Assembly (NCBI GenBank): GCA_937998875.1
Contig: CALLBO010000035.1
Coordinates: 1 to 64,000 of the forward strand
DNA length: 64,000 nucleotides
Reading direction: 5' to 3'
Origin: an uncultured Granulosicoccaceae bacterium
GTDB taxonomy: Bacteria; Pseudomonadota; Gammaproteobacteria; Granulosicoccales; Granulosicoccaceae
Position 1 is the first letter of the stretch, and each line of letters opens with the position of its first letter. The notes below the pieces were generated by a model. It did not search any database. It was not told the DNA's origin and saw nothing but the letters and a program-made list of their open reading frames with translations. Below are positions 6,302-30,538 of this stretch, piece by piece. A program made the position numbers and the translations under genes.

Positions 6302-7084
6302 CTAATCAGGTGGATGAGCACTGTAGATATCGTAGCGTGTATTCGGTGAAGTAATGTTGCCCGATGGTGTAACCTCTGCCAAAGGCGGGGCGTTTCGTGG
6401 CCGCTTCACCACAACACGCTTTGCAGTAGCGCGAGCCGCATTGAGCAAAGTGAGTTCATCCTGCTTTGCATCCAATAGCTCACGCAGTACTTGAATCTCT
6501 TTTTTTGCAGCGCGTTTTCCTTGTGGGTACATCGGGTCGAGATAGACAACCTGCGGGAGTTCTCTACGTTGATGAGCATCCACACCTGGCCAGCAATCCG
6601 GCAAATGATTGCTGTCTGCCAGTACCAGATGCATCTTTTGCACTATTGGTTTTGTGTCGTTATGACTGCGTGCCCGCTGCAGTGCATCCTGCAACAGTGC
6701 GTGCACGACAACAGATCTCTCTAATAACACCACTTCGCATCCAAGTGATGCGAATACGAAGGCATCTTTGCCGAAACCTGCTGTTGCATCGCAGATCAGG
6801 GGTGCGGTGTTGGTCTTGACTGCCCGGGCCATCGGCTGACCGTGTCTGCCGCCGAATTTTAGTCGGTGCAAGTTACGGCCGGCTGTAAAGTCTATGCTGG
6901 TGTCTACCGGGCGATTACTGCTGTGGTTGCGTAAGGTGAGCTTGTTGTTAATCCATTGCAGCGTGTAAGTGTGTGTAGTGGAGTCTCCCAGTAGTAAACC
7001 GGTTTCTTCAGCCAGTTTTTGGCAACGGCTGTTGTGCTCATCCTGTACGGCCACTGCCATTTTCTTTGTTTGCCCGTTTATCAC
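6302..7084 (-). CDS. rsmJ: 16S rRNA (guanine-1516-N2) methyltransferase RsmJ
   Basis: SAM-dependent methyltransferase modifying G1516 of 16S rRNA (E. coli YhiQ/RsmJ). The SAM-binding motif is APLICDATAGFGKDAF with VVLLERS following, and the catalytic-type motif is VVYLDPMYPQGKRAAKKE. These residues and order are specific for RsmJ. The longest frame begins with GTG at 7084 (260 aa). The first ATG is at 7060 (MAVAVQDEHNSR, 252 aa); neither has a strong ribosome site, so the start is open. The C-terminus is convergent with yajQ. Confidence 0.92.
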   Translation of the reverse strand: MINGQTKKMAVAVQDEHNSRCQKLAEETGLLLGDSTTHTYTLQWINNKLTLRNHSSNRPVDTSIDFTAGRNLHRLKFGGRHGQPMARAVKTNTAPLICDATAGFGKDAFVFASLGCEVVLLERSVVVHALLQDALQRARSHNDTKPIVQKMHLVLADSNHLPDCWPGVDAHQRRELPQVVYLDPMYPQGKRAAKKEIQVLRELLDAKQDELTLLNAARATAKRVVVKRPRNAPPLAEVTPSGNITSPNTRYDIYSAHPPD

Positions 7085-7163
7085 GCAGTGAAATTCTGCA
7101 TGATTAGACTTTCAGAGTGATGGCAGAATAAGGCCACCCCGGGCATACCTGTGACAATCTGTA

Positions 7164-7730
7164 GTGAATGATCAAAACATAAAGAAATTACTACTTCGCA
7201 CGTCCGTGAAGCTGATGATTGTGGCGGCGGTATTGGCATTTGTCTGGGTGCTGTTCGGATCTTTGCCAGAGCAGGGCCCTGAAGTGACGGAGATTGTTCG
7301 ATTTGATGTTTCTGATATGCAGCCCGGTGATCATCGTCTGGTCGAGTGGCAGAAAAAACCGTTGTTTATTGTCTACCGGAAGCCGGAGTGGGAGGCTGCA
7401 CTAATACGCGCTGATGCTGCACTGTACCATGACCCGGACAGCAGTAAATCGTCACAGATGCCATCGGCGGCCAATCCGTTGCGCTCCACGCAGAACGGAT
7501 GGTTTGTAACGCTTGGACTGGGTACCGGTATGGGGTGCACACTGGTATTTGCCGAGCCTAACGAGGCAACGACGGGTGTCGCCTCTGCCGGAGGGTTTAT
7601 CGATGGATGTGATCAGAGTTACTACGATCTTGCAGGGCGGGTATATAAGGAACAGCAAGCGAGGCGTAATACGGTGGTGCCGCGGTGGTCTTTGGTAGAC
7701 GGTGAAATTCTGGTTGGTGGCCCGGGTTGA
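7164..7730 (+). CDS. Membrane-anchored Rieske-fold protein lacking 2Fe-2S histidine ligands
   Basis: 188 aa with one N-terminal membrane segment (about residues 15-33, LMIVAAVLAFVWVLFGS) and an exported domain. The pattern resembles the cytochrome bc1 Rieske subunit: DVSDMQPGDHRLVEWQKKP followed by LFIVYR, then GGFIDGCDQSYYDLAGRVYK and NTVVPRW. In a true Rieske protein the cluster needs two C-x-H type pairs. Here the first site reads GCTLVF and the second GCDQSYYD, so both histidines are absent and no cluster is expected. The start is GTG at 7164. It stands alone between rsmJ and slyX. The function is unknown; the Rieske relationship is inferred from sequence pattern only. Confidence 0.6.
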   Translation: MNDQNIKKLLLRTSVKLMIVAAVLAFVWVLFGSLPEQGPEVTEIVRFDVSDMQPGDHRLVEWQKKPLFIVYRKPEWEAALIRADAALYHDPDSSKSSQMPSAANPLRSTQNGWFVTLGLGTGMGCTLVFAEPNEATTGVASAGGFIDGCDQSYYDLAGRVYKEQQARRNTVVPRWSLVDGEILVGGPG

Positions 7731-24698: not shown

Positions 24699-25766
24699 CT
24701 ACATGCTTTGCGATTGGGGGCGCCGTATGCTTTGTGTTGCTTGTTTGAACTCAGTGCAGGAATTTTCGAATAGCACTGTACTGGCAGGCATTGGAACCCG
24801 TGCACGAGCAACCCATTCAATGAGGCTCTTACAGTCGAACATCAGTTTCAAGCCTGTGCTGTGCAACCAGGCAGGCATAGCCGGATCATTGTATGGATGG
24901 CCTGTATACTCCACCAGTTCCTCACCTGCAGAGACGAACATTGGCCAGACTTTGAAGTTATTAGTCGCATCACTGCGCATTGTTTCGCACTCATACTTTG
25001 CGGCTACAGCAAAGCGCTCAATATAGTCTTCAGCGCCGGTGAAAGTCGGTAGTTGCGCAATGACTTCCTTTAGATGAGTGGCGATGGTGTCTATGTTACG
25101 CATCGCCTGTGCGATTTTTATAAAGCGTGATTCGTAGAAAGTTTCGATCGGTACCGAAAAAGCGCGAAACGGCTCGCCCCACAGTTCGTCAATACCTTCC
25201 TGACCACTGTAGTGTTTGACGTCTTTACCAAGTTCCAGTGCCTCTTTAAAACACTGACCGCACTCCTGCATCAGTTCGTTGTCGCTACTGACTTCTACAC
25301 CTTTGGCGGCAAGATCTACAATTGTTCTAAAGATGTCTGTGGCACGATTAAACAATGCACCGGCCAGCATTGCTGCGTTGACGCGTTTCTTCCTTGGATC
25401 TGTCTCACGATCATAGGATTCGCGCGCGCTATTTAGATGTTGCCCCGGAGTGTTAATGCCATGCTCTGTATGATGGAAAGTCCGGCGTGTGAGTGACTCA
25501 ATTAAATTTTTCTTTGCCTCCAGAGATTCGGCAGGAGGCTGATAATATCTGATCCAATAGTTGTCATAGAATACGAATTGCTGATCATTGACCGTGCAGC
25601 GTTCGCCGTTTTGAATATCGGCCCCCGTGGCGCGTTGCCATTCAACACCAGCGCGAAAGGTGCCTGCATCGCAGATAAAATCCGTTTCACGGCTCACAAT
25701 AGTTTCTCGTGTGACTCTCGGGATACTGGTTGGTTTCTGCATAGACGGCATCGGAATGCTAAACAC
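24699..25766 (-). CDS. Conserved-looking protein of unknown function
   Basis: Up to 355 aa, starting at GTG 25766; ATG codons at 25751 and 25742 are alternatives, and none has a strong ribosome site. I do not recognise a family. The protein is soluble and mostly helical. Visible stretches include DNYWIRYYQPPAESLEAKKN, RKKRVNAAMLAGALFNRATD, YSGQEGIDELWGEPFRAFSV and AKYECETMRSDATNNFKVW. There is no signal peptide or membrane segment. It is immediately upstream of the MnmD-type gene (3 bp), so a link to tRNA metabolism is possible but unproven. Confidence 0.6.
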   Translation of the reverse strand: MFSIPMPSMQKPTSIPRVTRETIVSRETDFICDAGTFRAGVEWQRATGADIQNGERCTVNDQQFVFYDNYWIRYYQPPAESLEAKKNLIESLTRRTFHHTEHGINTPGQHLNSARESYDRETDPRKKRVNAAMLAGALFNRATDIFRTIVDLAAKGVEVSSDNELMQECGQCFKEALELGKDVKHYSGQEGIDELWGEPFRAFSVPIETFYESRFIKIAQAMRNIDTIATHLKEVIAQLPTFTGAEDYIERFAVAAKYECETMRSDATNNFKVWPMFVSAGEELVEYTGHPYNDPAMPAWLHSTGLKLMFDCKSLIEWVARARVPMPASTVLFENSCTEFKQATQSIRRPQSQSM

Positions 25767-26024: not shown

Positions 26025-27008
26025 TTAGCCTTCAGCAGGCCTGCGAGCGAGCATAACGCATCGAATTGGTGCCGGGTAGCCTTCAATCGTTTTGTCCCTG
26101 TCTACAGGGTCGAGTCCGTTCTCAAGAGAATAAGATGGCATCCAGGGCGTTGATCGTTGCTCGTCGGTGGTTGTTTGGCAAAGGTCAATGCACTTGATGT
26201 CGCAAAAACCGGCTTGTCGCAACATATCCTCAAGCAGCGGCACACTTGGCAAAACCCAAACGTTTCGCATATTGGCATAGCGGTTCTCAGGTATCAGTGA
26301 CGTGACGTCATTACTCTCAATCACCAGAGTCTCAAGTACAAGTTCACCGCCGGGGCAAAGACAGGAGTGCAATCCTTCAAGATGTTGCAGAGGTTCGCGG
26401 CGATGACTGACGACACCCATAGAAAAAACAGTGTCAAATAGGTAGGGGTTATCGAATACATGTTCACCGGTAAGCGGCAGTACGGCGAATTGTGTTGCGC
26501 GTATAAAGTGATTGACGGCCGCATACTGAGTGCAGAAAAGTTCACCCGGGTCAACGCCGACTACCGTCTTTGCACCTTCGCCTAACATTCGGTAGCCGTA
26601 ATAGCCGTTGCCGCATCCGACATCCAGAACGTTGCGTCCCCTTAGCGGTGCGATGTGTTTTTTTATCCGGTCCCACTTAAGGTTGGAGCGCCACTCGCTA
26701 TCAATAAAGATGTCGTCAATTTTAAATGGGCCTTTACGCCATGGGGATAGCATTAACAATGCAGACTTAATCTGTTTTTGAATGTCAGCAGGAGTACTTG
26801 AAGTTGCGGTAACTATTTCTGAGTTAAGATCGATTTTGTTTGCATGGTACTCAGGTAACGAATGCAGTGCTTCCAGCCATAGCGGAAAATGACCGTGCTT
26901 TTTTGGATTCGATTGGGTTTCCACGATACCGTTGATTGAGTCTAACCAGACTTTCAGTTCTACCTGATGATCTGCCTGATAAAAACTGTCAAAGTTCAGC
27001 GTATTCAA
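26025..27008 (-). CDS. cmoB: tRNA U34 carboxymethyltransferase CmoB
   Basis: 327 aa. It uses carboxy-SAM made by CmoA to convert 5-hydroxyuridine at tRNA position 34 into cmo5U. Diagnostic are LMLSPWRKGPFKIDDIFIDSEW-like sequence around residue 90-110, WDRIKKHIAPLRGRNVLDVG with GCGNGYYGYRM, GVDPGELFCTQYAA, MGVVSHRREPLQHL, and NRYANMRNVWVLPSVPLLEDM near the C-terminus. All are typical of CmoB and distinguish it from ordinary methyltransferases. It follows cmoA by 7 bp in the normal cmoA-cmoB order. Confidence 0.96.
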   Translation of the reverse strand: MNTLNFDSFYQADHQVELKVWLDSINGIVETQSNPKKHGHFPLWLEALHSLPEYHANKIDLNSEIVTATSSTPADIQKQIKSALLMLSPWRKGPFKIDDIFIDSEWRSNLKWDRIKKHIAPLRGRNVLDVGCGNGYYGYRMLGEGAKTVVGVDPGELFCTQYAAVNHFIRATQFAVLPLTGEHVFDNPYLFDTVFSMGVVSHRREPLQHLEGLHSCLCPGGELVLETLVIESNDVTSLIPENRYANMRNVWVLPSVPLLEDMLRQAGFCDIKCIDLCQTTTDEQRSTPWMPSYSLENGLDPVDRDKTIEGYPAPIRCVMLARRPAEG

Positions 27009-27030
27009 CGAATCGCTACCGAATCGCTAC
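27009..27030. repeat. 11-bp tandem duplication at the cmoA 3' end
   Basis: Two exact copies of cgaatcgctac (27009-27019 and 27020-27030). The cmoA stop codon lies between them, so the duplication occupies the cmoA/cmoB junction. Confidence 0.8.
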
Positions 27031-27867
27031 AAGCGAGGCAAAATTAAAACACTGAAACCAGACTTCAACGCTGCGAAAGCCACAGTCGAGCAATCTTGTT
27101 TTGTGTGTGCTTAATGTCTCGGGCATCAATACGTTCTCAAGTGCATCGCGTTTTTGGCTTATCTCCAGTTCACTATAGCCGTTTGAACGTTTGAAGTTTT
27201 CATACATCGACGTCATCAGATGCTGTTGCTGTGTATCTTCGAATATAATTTTCTCAGACAGTATTAGTGCACCACCAGTGATCATGTTGTCGGCAAGCGA
27301 GCGGACGATTCTTTCACGTTCCTGTAAGGCAACGAACTGCAGTGTGAAATTTAATACGGCAACGCTATGCTCGACGTATTGATATTTTGTGATATCTGCA
27401 AGCTCTGATCTAACAGGTACCGGGCTGTCTTCGTTACTAATTCTTTCGTGCATGCGAGACAGCATCGCCTCAGAATTATCCAGTGCAACTATTGAGATCT
27501 TCGCGGCGTTCTGCTGGTGGTGGCGTTCTATCTGGTGCCGCATGGAGATTGTTGCAGCTCCAAGTGAGCTGCCAAGGTCGTAGCATACGGTGCCTGGCTT
27601 CGCGAACTTTGCTGCAAGCATGCCAGTTTGAAGCACAATGCTGCGATAGCCCGGGACGGACCGTTCTATCATGTCGTCGAATACACTCGCCACAGAATCA
27701 TTGAACTCAAACGGTGCAATCTGATCCAGTGGTTCGGCAAAGACACGGTCTGTTGGCGGGTTTGTCACGGTGCAGTTTATCACGGTGCATTGGGCCTGTA
27801 CGGGTATTGGGCTGTGGTGGCGGATTTGTCGTCGTGACTGGCTGGGGAATCTGTCATTATGATTCAT
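27016..27867 (-). CDS. cmoA: Carboxy-S-adenosyl-L-methionine synthase CmoA
   Basis: Makes carboxy-SAM from SAM and prephenate for tRNA cmo5U34 synthesis. Motifs are FNDSVASVFDDMIERSVPGY, TVCYDLGSSLGAATISMRH, AVLNFTLQFVALQERE, MITGGALILSEKI, KRSNGYSELEISQKRDALEN and VWFQCFNFASLVAIR. The frame from ATG 27867 is 283 aa, about 36 longer than E. coli CmoA (247). The extra N-terminus includes an in-frame 15-bp duplication, and GTG codons within it could be the true start. It is divergent from the DNA glycosylase gene, with starts nearly touching. Confidence 0.95.
   Translation of the reverse strand: MNHNDRFPSQSRRQIRHHSPIPVQAQCTVINCTVTNPPTDRVFAEPLDQIAPFEFNDSVASVFDDMIERSVPGYRSIVLQTGMLAAKFAKPGTVCYDLGSSLGAATISMRHQIERHHQQNAAKISIVALDNSEAMLSRMHERISNEDSPVPVRSELADITKYQYVEHSVAVLNFTLQFVALQERERIVRSLADNMITGGALILSEKIIFEDTQQQHLMTSMYENFKRSNGYSELEISQKRDALENVLMPETLSTHKTRLLDCGFRSVEVWFQCFNFASLVAIR
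27761..27790. repeat. 15-bp tandem duplication in the cmoA N-terminal region
   Basis: Copies tttgtcacggtgcag (27761-27775) and tttatcacggtgcat (27776-27790) differ at two positions. If cmoA starts at 27867 they encode CTVIN/CTVTN five-residue repeats in frame. Confidence 0.75.
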
Positions 27868-27869
27868 GA

Positions 27870-28568
27870 TTGACTCATCGGTACCAAGCCATCACATTCA
27901 AAGCTATCACAAGTAAAAACAGGCATTATAAATTGTCTGAAGCGAAAAAGTACCTGTCTGGTGTCGATAAAACCATGGGTCGACTGATTGCGCTTGTCGG
28001 TAAAACTGCAGTCCGTAGCGAGCAGGAGCTGAGTGTTTTTCAGTCTCTGGTTCGGGCAATAGCCTACCAGATGATTTCTACTAAAGCGGCAGCGGCAATT
28101 CACGGGCGATTAGTTGAGCACTGCGATTCAGACCTGCAACCCGATAAGTTGCTGCAGTTGGGGGAGGAACAGATCCGCCAGGTTGGATTTTCGCGCGCCA
28201 AGTCGGCATCAATACTGGATCTTGCTGAAAAATTTACCAATGGAACCTTGCCGGGTGATCCAGCCCTCGATGCAATGTCAGATGCCGAGCTGACCAGGTG
28301 CCTGACCCAGGTGCGCGGTATCGGTAACTGGAGTGTGCAGATGTTGATGATATTCAATTTGCGCAGGGCAGATGTTTTTCCTGCCACTGACCTCGGTGTG
28401 CGTAGAGGTCACATGCTCGCCTATGATCTTGATGAAATGCTTAGCGCTAAAGCGTTATTGGATCTATCGACAGTCTGGCAACCTTACCGTTCTGTTGCCG
28501 CCTGGTATTTGTGGCGTGCCAACGATTGTGTTGACTGGGATGCTGTTATGGCTGCCGCAAGAAAGTGA
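27870..28568 (+). CDS. DNA-3-methyladenine glycosylase, HhH-GPD (AlkA-like)
   Basis: Base-excision repair glycosylase, up to 232 aa from TTG 27870; a TTG at 27933 with AGG upstream gives 211 aa. The helix-hairpin-helix is LTQVRGIGNWSVQMLMIFNL, followed by the catalytic Asp in FPATDLGVRRG, the GPD loop order of AlkA. LVRAIAYQMISTKAA is the usual helix with substrate-side Gln and the C-terminus has WQPYRSVAAWYLWR. It lacks the N-terminal domain of E. coli AlkA, as in short AlkA/Mag forms. Its stop overlaps the next gene's GTG start (GTGA at 28565-28568), so the two are coupled. Confidence 0.9.
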   Translation: MTHRYQAITFKAITSKNRHYKLSEAKKYLSGVDKTMGRLIALVGKTAVRSEQELSVFQSLVRAIAYQMISTKAAAAIHGRLVEHCDSDLQPDKLLQLGEEQIRQVGFSRAKSASILDLAEKFTNGTLPGDPALDAMSDAELTRCLTQVRGIGNWSVQMLMIFNLRRADVFPATDLGVRRGHMLAYDLDEMLSAKALLDLSTVWQPYRSVAAWYLWRANDCVDWDAVMAAARK

Positions 28569-29425
28569 AGATTATATTAAGCCGCAAAGGTGTGGACAGT
28601 AGTGCAGGCGGCTTTGCCAGTCCGGTATTTCCCGATGGCCAAATGATCTCGATACCTATTCCGGATAAGCGTTCCAATGTTCGTTATCGCGATCTTATCG
28701 CTGCTGACAACAACAGATCAGTTGGCAAACTTGTCAGAGATTTAAGCAACAGCAAGCTAAATACTGCGGCAAAAGTGCACGTTGACCCTGATCTTAATCG
28801 CGACAGTCTTGACAGAGACTCTAATTGGCAACCGCTGTTCGGCCAGTGCGGTGCAGCGCAGACACATTTGCACAGCTTGAATGTCGGGCACGGTGATCTG
28901 TTCCTGTTTTTCGGCTGGTTCCGGCGGGTTGAATGGCATAAGAGACGTTGGCGTTATATGACAGGTGCACCTGATGAACATGTTCTCTTTGGCTGGCTGC
29001 AGATTGATTCTGTCGAGCCGGTTGAGAATATTATGCAGTCGGAGGAACTCACATGGATGCGCTATCACCCGCATTGTTTGGCAGATTTTGCAGGTAGCAA
29101 CGTAATCTATACAGCGTCAAAGCATCTTTCCTGGTCGCGAAAGAAACTACCGGGCGCGGGATTGTTCAAATGCTACCGTGATGAGCTCCGTTTGACCCAA
29201 CCGGGTGCCACTCGATCACACTGGCAGCTGCCGCGATGGATGCATCCGCAGGATCGTCACACGTCACTGAGTTATCACGCCGACATAAAACGGTGGCAGA
29301 GAACCGACAAGTTTGCTTTGTTAAGGTCTGCCGCGCGGGGGCAGGAGTTTGTACTGGACCTCGCGGACTATCCTGAAGGGGTGAAATGGGTGCGTAGTTT
29401 GTTGGCGCGCAACATCGCGCTATAG
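28565..29425 (+). CDS. Nmad3-like (nucleotide-modification-associated domain 3) protein
   Basis: 286 aa, start GTG 28565 inside the stop of the glycosylase gene. The N-terminus KIILSRKGVDSSAGGFASPV and PDGQMISIPIPD, the middle FGQCGAAQTHLHSLNVGHGD and LFLFFGWFRRVEW, HVLFGWLQI, and the C-terminus SLSYHADIKRWQ with ARGQEFVLDLADYPE correspond to what I recall of the Nmad3 family. That family was proposed from comparative genomics to act with DNA base modification. No enzymatic activity is established, and the family name is from memory. Coupling to a base-excision glycosylase is the informative context. No phage or restriction genes lie nearby. Confidence 0.65.
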   Translation: MKIILSRKGVDSSAGGFASPVFPDGQMISIPIPDKRSNVRYRDLIAADNNRSVGKLVRDLSNSKLNTAAKVHVDPDLNRDSLDRDSNWQPLFGQCGAAQTHLHSLNVGHGDLFLFFGWFRRVEWHKRRWRYMTGAPDEHVLFGWLQIDSVEPVENIMQSEELTWMRYHPHCLADFAGSNVIYTASKHLSWSRKKLPGAGLFKCYRDELRLTQPGATRSHWQLPRWMHPQDRHTSLSYHADIKRWQRTDKFALLRSAARGQEFVLDLADYPEGVKWVRSLLARNIAL

Positions 29426-29465: not shown

Positions 29466-30221
29466 ATGAAAGACCCTGAACGTTACCCGGATAATCAACG
29501 GGCAGATACTTTCAACAAGCGGGAGCTGTTACTCGGTGCGCGTGACACGCTACCGATGATTGTCGGTGCGATTCCGTTTGGTATCCTGTTTGGCGCTTTG
29601 GCAACTTCGGCGGGCATGTCGGTATATGCCACCATGGCAATGTCGCTATTTGTGTTTGCGGGCTCGAGCCAGTTTGTTGCAGCAACGCTGATCAGTCAGG
29701 GAGTAGGTGTTGCGGTCATAGTGATGACCACATTTTTTGTGAACCTGCGGCATGCGCTTTACTCCGCATCATTGGGTCCTTACTTTAAAGGGTTGAAACA
29801 GAGATGGCTGTTGCCATTAGGTTTTTTGCTTACCGATGAAACTTATGCAGTCGTTATAAAACGGGCTAACGAATCGCCTGAAAAACGGCACCATTGGTAT
29901 TGTCTGGGGTCATCGATTGCTATGTACGTTAACTGGCAACTGTGTACGCTCATTGGCATAACAGCAGGTAACGCGCTTGAGAATCTTTCTGGCTGGGGGC
30001 TGGAGTTCGCGATGATTGTCACGTTCATCGGCATCGTCGTGCCTTTAATTACCCGGATGCCGATGCTGGTTGCCGCCCTGGTCGCAATTGCGGTTGGTTT
30101 GTTGACTCGCGACATTGCGCATAATCTTGGTTTAATTGTCGCATCAGTTGCGGGTGTGGCAGCAGGCTATATGACTGAAGTAATTAGTGAACGCAATGCA
30201 GCCGGGGTGACAGAGCAATGA
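29466..30221 (+). CDS. azlC: AzlC family branched-chain amino acid exporter, large subunit
   Basis: 251 aa membrane protein with about eight hydrophobic segments. The AzlC hallmark is at the start ([53 protein letters not shown]), followed by [10 protein letters not shown]. With AzlD it forms an exporter of branched-chain or related hydrophobic amino acids. The ATG at 29466 is 40 bp after the Nmad3-like gene. The stop overlaps the azlD ATG (ATGA at 30218-30221). Confidence 0.92.
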
Positions 30222-30538
30222 AAAATTTCCTGTTGATATTTTTTATGATGATCGTGACGTTTGGTGTGCGCTACCCGGTGCTGGCATTGATAGGACGCTA
30301 TGACTTGCCGAAGCCGTTGAAGCGTGCGCTGCAATTTGTGCCAGTCGCGGTCTTAAGTGCGCTGTGTGCACCGATGGTGCTGATCCAGGATGGCCAATGG
30401 GCTATCTCTGTGACGAATGCCTATCTCTTAGCAAGTGTTGTTGCGATATTGGTTGCATGGAAAACGCATCACTTGCTGCTGACTATTGTGGTTGGGATGA
30501 TCGTTTTTACGGTGCTGAGAGTTGCAGGGCTGGGCTAG
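30218..30538 (+). CDS. azlD: AzlD family branched-chain amino acid exporter, small subunit
   Basis: 106 aa with four hydrophobic segments. The pattern [24 protein letters not shown] matches AzlD, as do [16 protein letters not shown] and the C-terminal [13 protein letters not shown]. It is coupled to azlC by a 4-bp overlap and convergent with gpt 19 bp away. Confidence 0.9.

Follow-up and report, generated by a model that had tools for sequence, protein, structure and literature searches.

A putative Mag1-type DNA glycosylase gene and an Nmad3 gene paired in a single clade of Granulosicoccaceae

Iyer and colleagues are said to have based the Nmad family name, in 2013, on comparative genomics. 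A literature search in partly accessible sources found no tested function of Nmad3 (PF18754), and the accessible part of PMC13092281 does not state which Nmad is meant. According to the accessible part of PMC7897488, EVE captures modified bases by flipping them into a pocket, and the accessible text of PMC7641849 presents YTH as the closest structural relative of EVE. The same text reports EVE in varied chromosomal contexts, a feature that Nmad3 shares in the present analysis, and its main text makes no mention of glycosylases or of Nmad. The EVE-HNH endonuclease VcaM4I (accessible part of PMC7897488) offers a functional analogy to the locus described here, since it couples a reader to an activity that attacks DNA; however, the present locus encodes two separate proteins, with a glycosylase instead of a nuclease.

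The window, i.e. the whole stretch of DNA analyzed here, corresponds to positions 1-64000 on a contig of 152,775 bases, from an assembly of 5.2 Mb in 121 contigs. It carries a gene encoding an HhH-GPD DNA glycosylase followed by a gene encoding an Nmad3 protein (Table 1). The initial annotation had proposed these identities, and profile searches make them certain. The first protein reaches 46.6 bits against PF00730 (Pfam cut-off of 26.2). The second matches the Nmad3 profile over its full length (positions 1-247 of 247) and far above the cut-off (270.1 bits compared to 27). Nmad3 is the sole Pfam family that it matches at E ≤ 0.01, and EVE (PF01878) is not matched.

Table 1. Features of the glycosylase-Nmad3 locus and of its flanks (positions in the window).
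Feature	Position	Strand	Remarks
HhH-GPD DNA glycosylase, most likely of Mag1/alkylpurine type	27870..28568	+	PF00730 E 4.9e-12; 232 aa as called
Nmad3 protein, 286 aa	28565..29425	+	PF18754 E 2.6e-80
GTGA stop/start overlap of the glycosylase and Nmad3 genes	28565..28568	+	not conserved in relatives
cmoA, divergent flank, outside the pair	27016..27867	-	TIGR00740 E 6e-79
cmoB, flank	26025..27008	-	TIGR00452 E 1.2e-120
azlC, flank	29466..30221	+	PF03591 E 2.2e-45; homologue directly 3' of the glycosylase gene in genus g4 (by eye)
azlD, flank	30218..30538	+	PF05437 E 1.6e-24

The best solved relative of the glycosylase is 3s6i, a DNA-3-methyladenine glycosylase 1 (E 3.8e-37, residues 21-224), which we take to be Mag1 of S. 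pombe. The protein resembles the alkylpurine glycosylases of the Mag1 and AlkA2 types by its HhH motif and by an aligned Asp: G150, G152 and D174 are invariant in 13 aligned glycosylase sequences, and D174 is presumably the catalytic Asp. By contrast, it falls outside the AlkA equivalog (PRK10308 of NCBIfam), scoring 33 bits compared to a cut-off of 229. With its family, motif and Asp established, the first gene encodes an HhH-GPD glycosylase, of Mag1 type by sequence kinship, which would most likely excise alkylated purines. Its start as called, a TTG at 27870, is doubtful, since homology begins only at about residue 11-22, since two relatives (L032 and L036) start at a TTG corresponding to position 27933 of the window, and since only 2 bp would remain to the start of the divergent cmoA. 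The true start probably lies further in, for example at 27933.

A search for PF18754 detected Nmad3 in 13 of the 14 genomes of the genus of the window (g1) and in one genome of another genus of the same family (g5), compared to 0 of the 33 other genomes searched in the order. The only g1 genome devoid of Nmad3 (77% complete) has no glycosylase match either. The 14 Nmad3 loci are hereafter called the clade, and 13 of them hold both genes on one contig. In all of these (12 from g1 and one from the other genus), the glycosylase gene is located directly upstream of the Nmad3 gene and in the same direction. In the 14th locus (L043), a contig end lies 226 nt from the beginning of the Nmad3 gene, and the glycosylase gene of this genome is found near the end of another contig. 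The nine clade Nmad3 proteins that were aligned share 52-67% identity with the one from the window. It is likely that the two genes belong to one shared operon in this clade.

The surroundings of the pair are more changeable. Among the 13 loci, cmoA adjoins cmoB in six and was not found there in seven (L036-L040, L042 and L044), an antisense gene located between the Nmad3 gene and azlC was not found in two, and three loci (L037, L041 and L044) gave no azlCD despite having later genes. The pair itself stays together throughout these changes. The reading that we tentatively prefer is a chromosomal two-gene unit in which a glycosylase of alkylated bases would be co-transcribed with a putative base reader, because adjacency and co-direction persist in 13/13 loci while the neighbours on both sides turn over, and because Nmad3 is present in nearly the whole genus (13 of the 14 genomes). 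A joint function of the pair, as judged from its sequence and gene order, is possible. However, adjacency alone is weak evidence, since the whole region is syntenic in the clade. This synteny also favours an explanation that ranks just below the two-gene unit and is nearly as likely: Nmad3 would have landed once behind a resident glycosylase gene and then been inherited vertically within a syntenic region, the two neighbours doing no joint work. Such chance neighbours would fit less well with an adjacency kept in all 13 loci despite the turnover around it, and with a pair that is always co-directional. Beyond the flanks, a gene encoding a 355-aa protein (24699-25766, minus strand) adjoins cmoB in every clade locus but one (13 of 14), the exception starting at a contig end; Pfam and NCBIfam searches returned nothing for this protein at E ≤ 0.01.

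The initial annotation described the two genes as translationally coupled. The overlap itself exists: the stop codon TGA of the glycosylase gene occupies positions 28566-28568 and the start codon GTG of the Nmad3 gene positions 28565-28567, a start that is secure since relatives share the N-terminal stretch around ILSRKG. As a sign of a functional link, translational coupling was rejected. The two genes overlap in only 4 of the 13 genomes that carry both on one contig, and their spacing varies widely (-32, -10, -4, -1, 0, 6, 13, 19, 35, 39, 46, 53 and 264 nt), which is one more point in favour of chance neighbours. The GTGA sequence on its own is ordinary, since four-base overlaps of Nmad3 with unrelated genes occur elsewhere too (L046, L129 and L137).

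The origin of the pairing can be traced by comparison with another genus of the same family (g4), in which 6 of the 15 genomes searched carry a glycosylase of 42-46% identity. At these loci, inspected by eye, azlC follows the glycosylase gene directly in five cases, the sixth being cut by the contig end; three of the six also have a cmoA-like gene upstream, in divergent orientation. None of these six genomes carries Nmad3 (PF18754 search). Furthermore, a tree of 77 proteins unites the 14 clade Nmad3 in one branch (100/99). The pairing in the clade arose once, with Nmad3 located behind a resident glycosylase gene and ahead of azlC: none of 64 Nmad3 loci from outside the clade is paired in this way, and g4 carries the glycosylase gene at this site but no Nmad3. 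In the simplest history, Nmad3 was inserted once next to a glycosylase gene that was already resident, the alternative being an older presence of Nmad3 that was lost in g4. Both the single branch and the g4 loci devoid of Nmad3 are what would be expected of chance neighbours. They also bear on the proposal that the pair represents an undescribed system, which did not hold in its general form. The neighbourhood survey found the pairing at 13 of the 14 Nmad3 loci of the clade and at 0/64 outside, so that the adjacency is essentially confined to close relatives. As far as these data go, the pair does not represent an undescribed system of wide distribution; the pairing is real and seen only in one clade.

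The glycosylase of the clade also differs from the Mag1 and AlkA2 types at two positions. All 14 glycosylases of the Nmad3-bearing clade have Met at residue 68, the second position of a QQ(L/I)-type motif (that of L044 was read from the alignment of 13 glycosylase sequences), whereas all six glycosylases of g4, which lacks Nmad3, have Gln. Gln is also found in four more distant relatives (L104, L105, L106 and L108), the motif being unreadable in the other six. Just ahead of the conserved Asp, the clade carries Thr, whereas g4 carries Asn or Ala. From work on Mag1, residue 68 is presumably the plug, occupying the space that the flipped base vacates; a literature search for Gln62 of Mag1 gave no match. 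The contrast between Met68 in the clade and Gln in g4 argues for the two-gene unit. However, as a single change on a single branch, Met68 is inseparable from descent; both differences lie on this branch and may be unrelated to Nmad3.

The set of 64 outside loci includes 50 loci from sampled genomes, two from genome contigs, two from plasmid records and 10 from IMG/VR contigs. The 50 sampled loci are distributed among the class (n = 6), the phylum (n = 8), family f171 (n = 13), the class of genome G734 (n = 4) and the order of genome G764 (n = 19). Nmad3 was found in 7 of 369 genomes of the class and 9 of 398 of the phylum, the genome of the window being counted in both, and in 14 of 151 genomes of f171, 7 of 240 of the class of G734 and 22 of 322 of the order of G764, the genome on which each sample was centred being counted. 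With our own Nmad3 profile, the gene was recovered at 77 of all 78 loci, that of L050 resting on PF18754. Using a profile made from 13 glycosylases, which may miss distant HhH-GPD branches, no Mag1-type glycosylase was found beside Nmad3 in the 64 outside loci, 36 of which have only about 1.5 kb of flanking sequence. With this reservation, the location of an Nmad3 gene behind a Mag1-type glycosylase gene distinguishes the window from the members of PF18754 at these outside loci, and its absence there counts, together with the synteny of the clade region, against the unit of reader and glycosylase.

The recurrent partner of Nmad3 across families is Nmad2 (PF18753), which adjoins it in 7 of the 64 outside loci, in both gene orders and in several families. 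It is located upstream in L050, L052, L058 and L080 (just over the cut-off in the last one) and downstream in L083, L115 and L059, the frames of L115 and L059 holding only the first part of the profile. Nmad2 was detected neither in the genome of the window nor in any of the 15 clade genomes searched. The idea that Nmad2 and Nmad3 are sequence relatives was rejected (hhalign E 0.31). Within f171, the gene directly upstream of Nmad3 encodes an endonuclease IV (AP_endonuc_2) in L051, L062, L063, L065 and L071, which belong to two genera, and a helicase (Helicase_C_2), presumably DinG-like, in L067-L070, which belong to two other genera. These neighbours are a hint of DNA repair. They represent 2 of the 43 groups of upstream ORFs outside the clade, several of which are probably not genes, and an enrichment in repair genes is not claimed since all are in f171 and most other contexts look unrelated. 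Elsewhere, Nmad3 lies beside genes encoding HAD, thioesterase, class II tRNA-synthetase-like, glycine dehydrogenase, DUF599, MgtE, RsmE-like (by eye) and further proteins, a variety that again favours chance neighbours. Even if the pair has no joint role, Nmad3 is, in the sampled genomes, mainly a chromosomal gene of shifting neighbourhoods. Two neighbours deserve mention. L132 encodes an LPD1-domain protein (685-1467) immediately upstream of Nmad3, with a similar protein downstream in L137 (by eye), and the IMG/VR contig L078 encodes a HARE-HTH protein (6634-7593) upstream of Nmad3.

A link of the second protein with modified bases, also proposed initially, receives some support from fold comparison, which stays below significance. 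Models were computed with AlphaFold2 from 13 sequences for the Nmad3 protein of the window (pLDDT 90.7) and for a compact natural homologue of 246 residues from an IMG/VR contig (pLDDT 92.5). The window model gave no Foldseek match at E ≤ 0.001 in the PDB or BFVD; its resemblance to EVE is faint (best EVE match at E 1.0), and its weak matches include scattered proteins that we take to belong to the PUA superfamily. The compact model gave no match at E ≤ 0.001 in the PDB either. Its first-ranked match is PH1033, presumably an EVE protein (E 0.023, probability 0.90, TM 0.32/0.48, rmsd 6.5). Of its 231 matches at E ≤ 10, the best 50 comprise 30 titled YTH, four titled THYN1, six that are presumably EVE proteins (2hd9, 1wmm, 2eve, 2g2x, 2ar1 and 2gbs) and 10 others. 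EVE, YTH and THYN1 would thus amount to 40 of these best 50 matches, including the six presumptive EVE proteins, and all are non-significant; most are weaker than PH1033, and many of the YTH matches are the same few proteins. Alignment of the Nmad3 profile with an alignment of seven EVE proteins was not significant (hhalign E 0.34); these were seven of nine fetched EVE pieces, L125 being left out because of a stop codon and L126 because of a weak match. EVE itself was found in none of the sequences of the genome of the window and in 8 of 16 other genomes searched.

Although EVE (THYN1, PH1033) and YTH readers dominate the weak structural matches of the compact model, Nmad3 differs from them by the lack of a Pfam EVE match, of a significant profile-profile match and of high Foldseek TM-scores. 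We suspect, from the models, that the core of Nmad3 is EVE/YTH-like (PUA superfamily). The role of reader is suggested because most of the best matches of the compact model are EVE or YTH and because EVE holds modified bases in a pocket (accessible part of PMC7897488); the Foldseek and hhalign values given above count against it. A different role for Nmad3 would be that of an enzyme, whose invariant residues form a catalytic site making, altering or removing a base modification. Among 23 aligned Nmad3 sequences, the one from the window included, S6, R7, K8, D11, H72, D74, Q94, D111, H168, H170, Q260 and E261 are invariant, and the resulting set of Ser-Arg-Lys, Asp, His-x-Asp-Pro, His-x-His and Gln-Glu is large for a simple binding pocket. 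However, the best fold resemblance, itself weak, points to binding domains, and Nmad3 has no profile link to a known enzyme, which makes catalysis by Nmad3 distinctly improbable.

In the preferred two-gene unit, the glycosylase would excise alkylated purines, and Nmad3 would bind a modified or damaged base in a pocket of the PUA superfamily (EVE/YTH-like). Made together with the glycosylase, this putative reader would bind the same base or a related one; once bound, it could present or mark the base for excision or, conversely, shield a deliberate modification from the glycosylase. Should both proteins act together, a separate reader would guide base excision in these bacteria. It is rather unlikely that this extends to an EVE/YTH-like protein that recognizes a specific modified or damaged base and directs, or restrains, a glycosylase whose presumed plug, residue 68, differs in the same lineage (Gln to Met). 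If true, it would amount to a dedicated chromosomal pathway that edits or guards bases, lying outside both restriction and phage biology, and would provide a first function for the Nmad3 family. The conservation of Nmad3 with a base-excision enzyme and the faint hint of an EVE/YTH fold make base binding by Nmad3 directly testable.

The absence of a phage or restriction context, as initially described, was supported. PADLOC gave no match to the glycosylase or Nmad3 genes, three Nmad3 queries found the gene in 0 of 50,697 phage records, and among 72,556 plasmid records it was found in 2, both being non-mobilizable replicons (1.6 and 3.2 Mb); the pair thus shows neither a PADLOC match nor a mobile context that would point to anti-phage defence. 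On the other hand, the Nmad3 protein of the window weakly matches phrog_34025 (E 1.8e-4), a phage family of unknown function, and the occurrence of Nmad3 on 10 IMG/VR contigs counts against a purely cellular gene. A defence or anti-defence module, in which Nmad3, often with Nmad2, would sense modified phage DNA, could account for the adjacency of these two genes in both orders at seven outside loci. It could also account for a gene upstream of Nmad3 on an IMG/VR contig (L075) that encodes a DNA methylase with a ParB-like N-terminus (the ParB part being below the cut-off), with a homologue in L077, for such a methylase gene about 2 kb downstream of Nmad3 in L082 (IMG/VR), and for an IMG/VR Nmad3 whose tail matches HNH_3 below threshold. 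However, the lack of Nmad2 in the 15 clade genomes searched, the PADLOC result, the near absence of Nmad3 from phage and plasmid records and its presence in 13/14 genomes of the genus, a pattern that most mobile defence genes do not show, make such a module highly unlikely. The tail just mentioned is a C-terminal extension of the Nmad3 protein on IMG/VR contig L079 (1613-2065), which has no PDB relative better than E 0.69 and scores 12.7 bits against HNH_3 compared to a cut-off of 24.8; it is reminiscent of the EVE-HNH enzymes and is kept as a hint.
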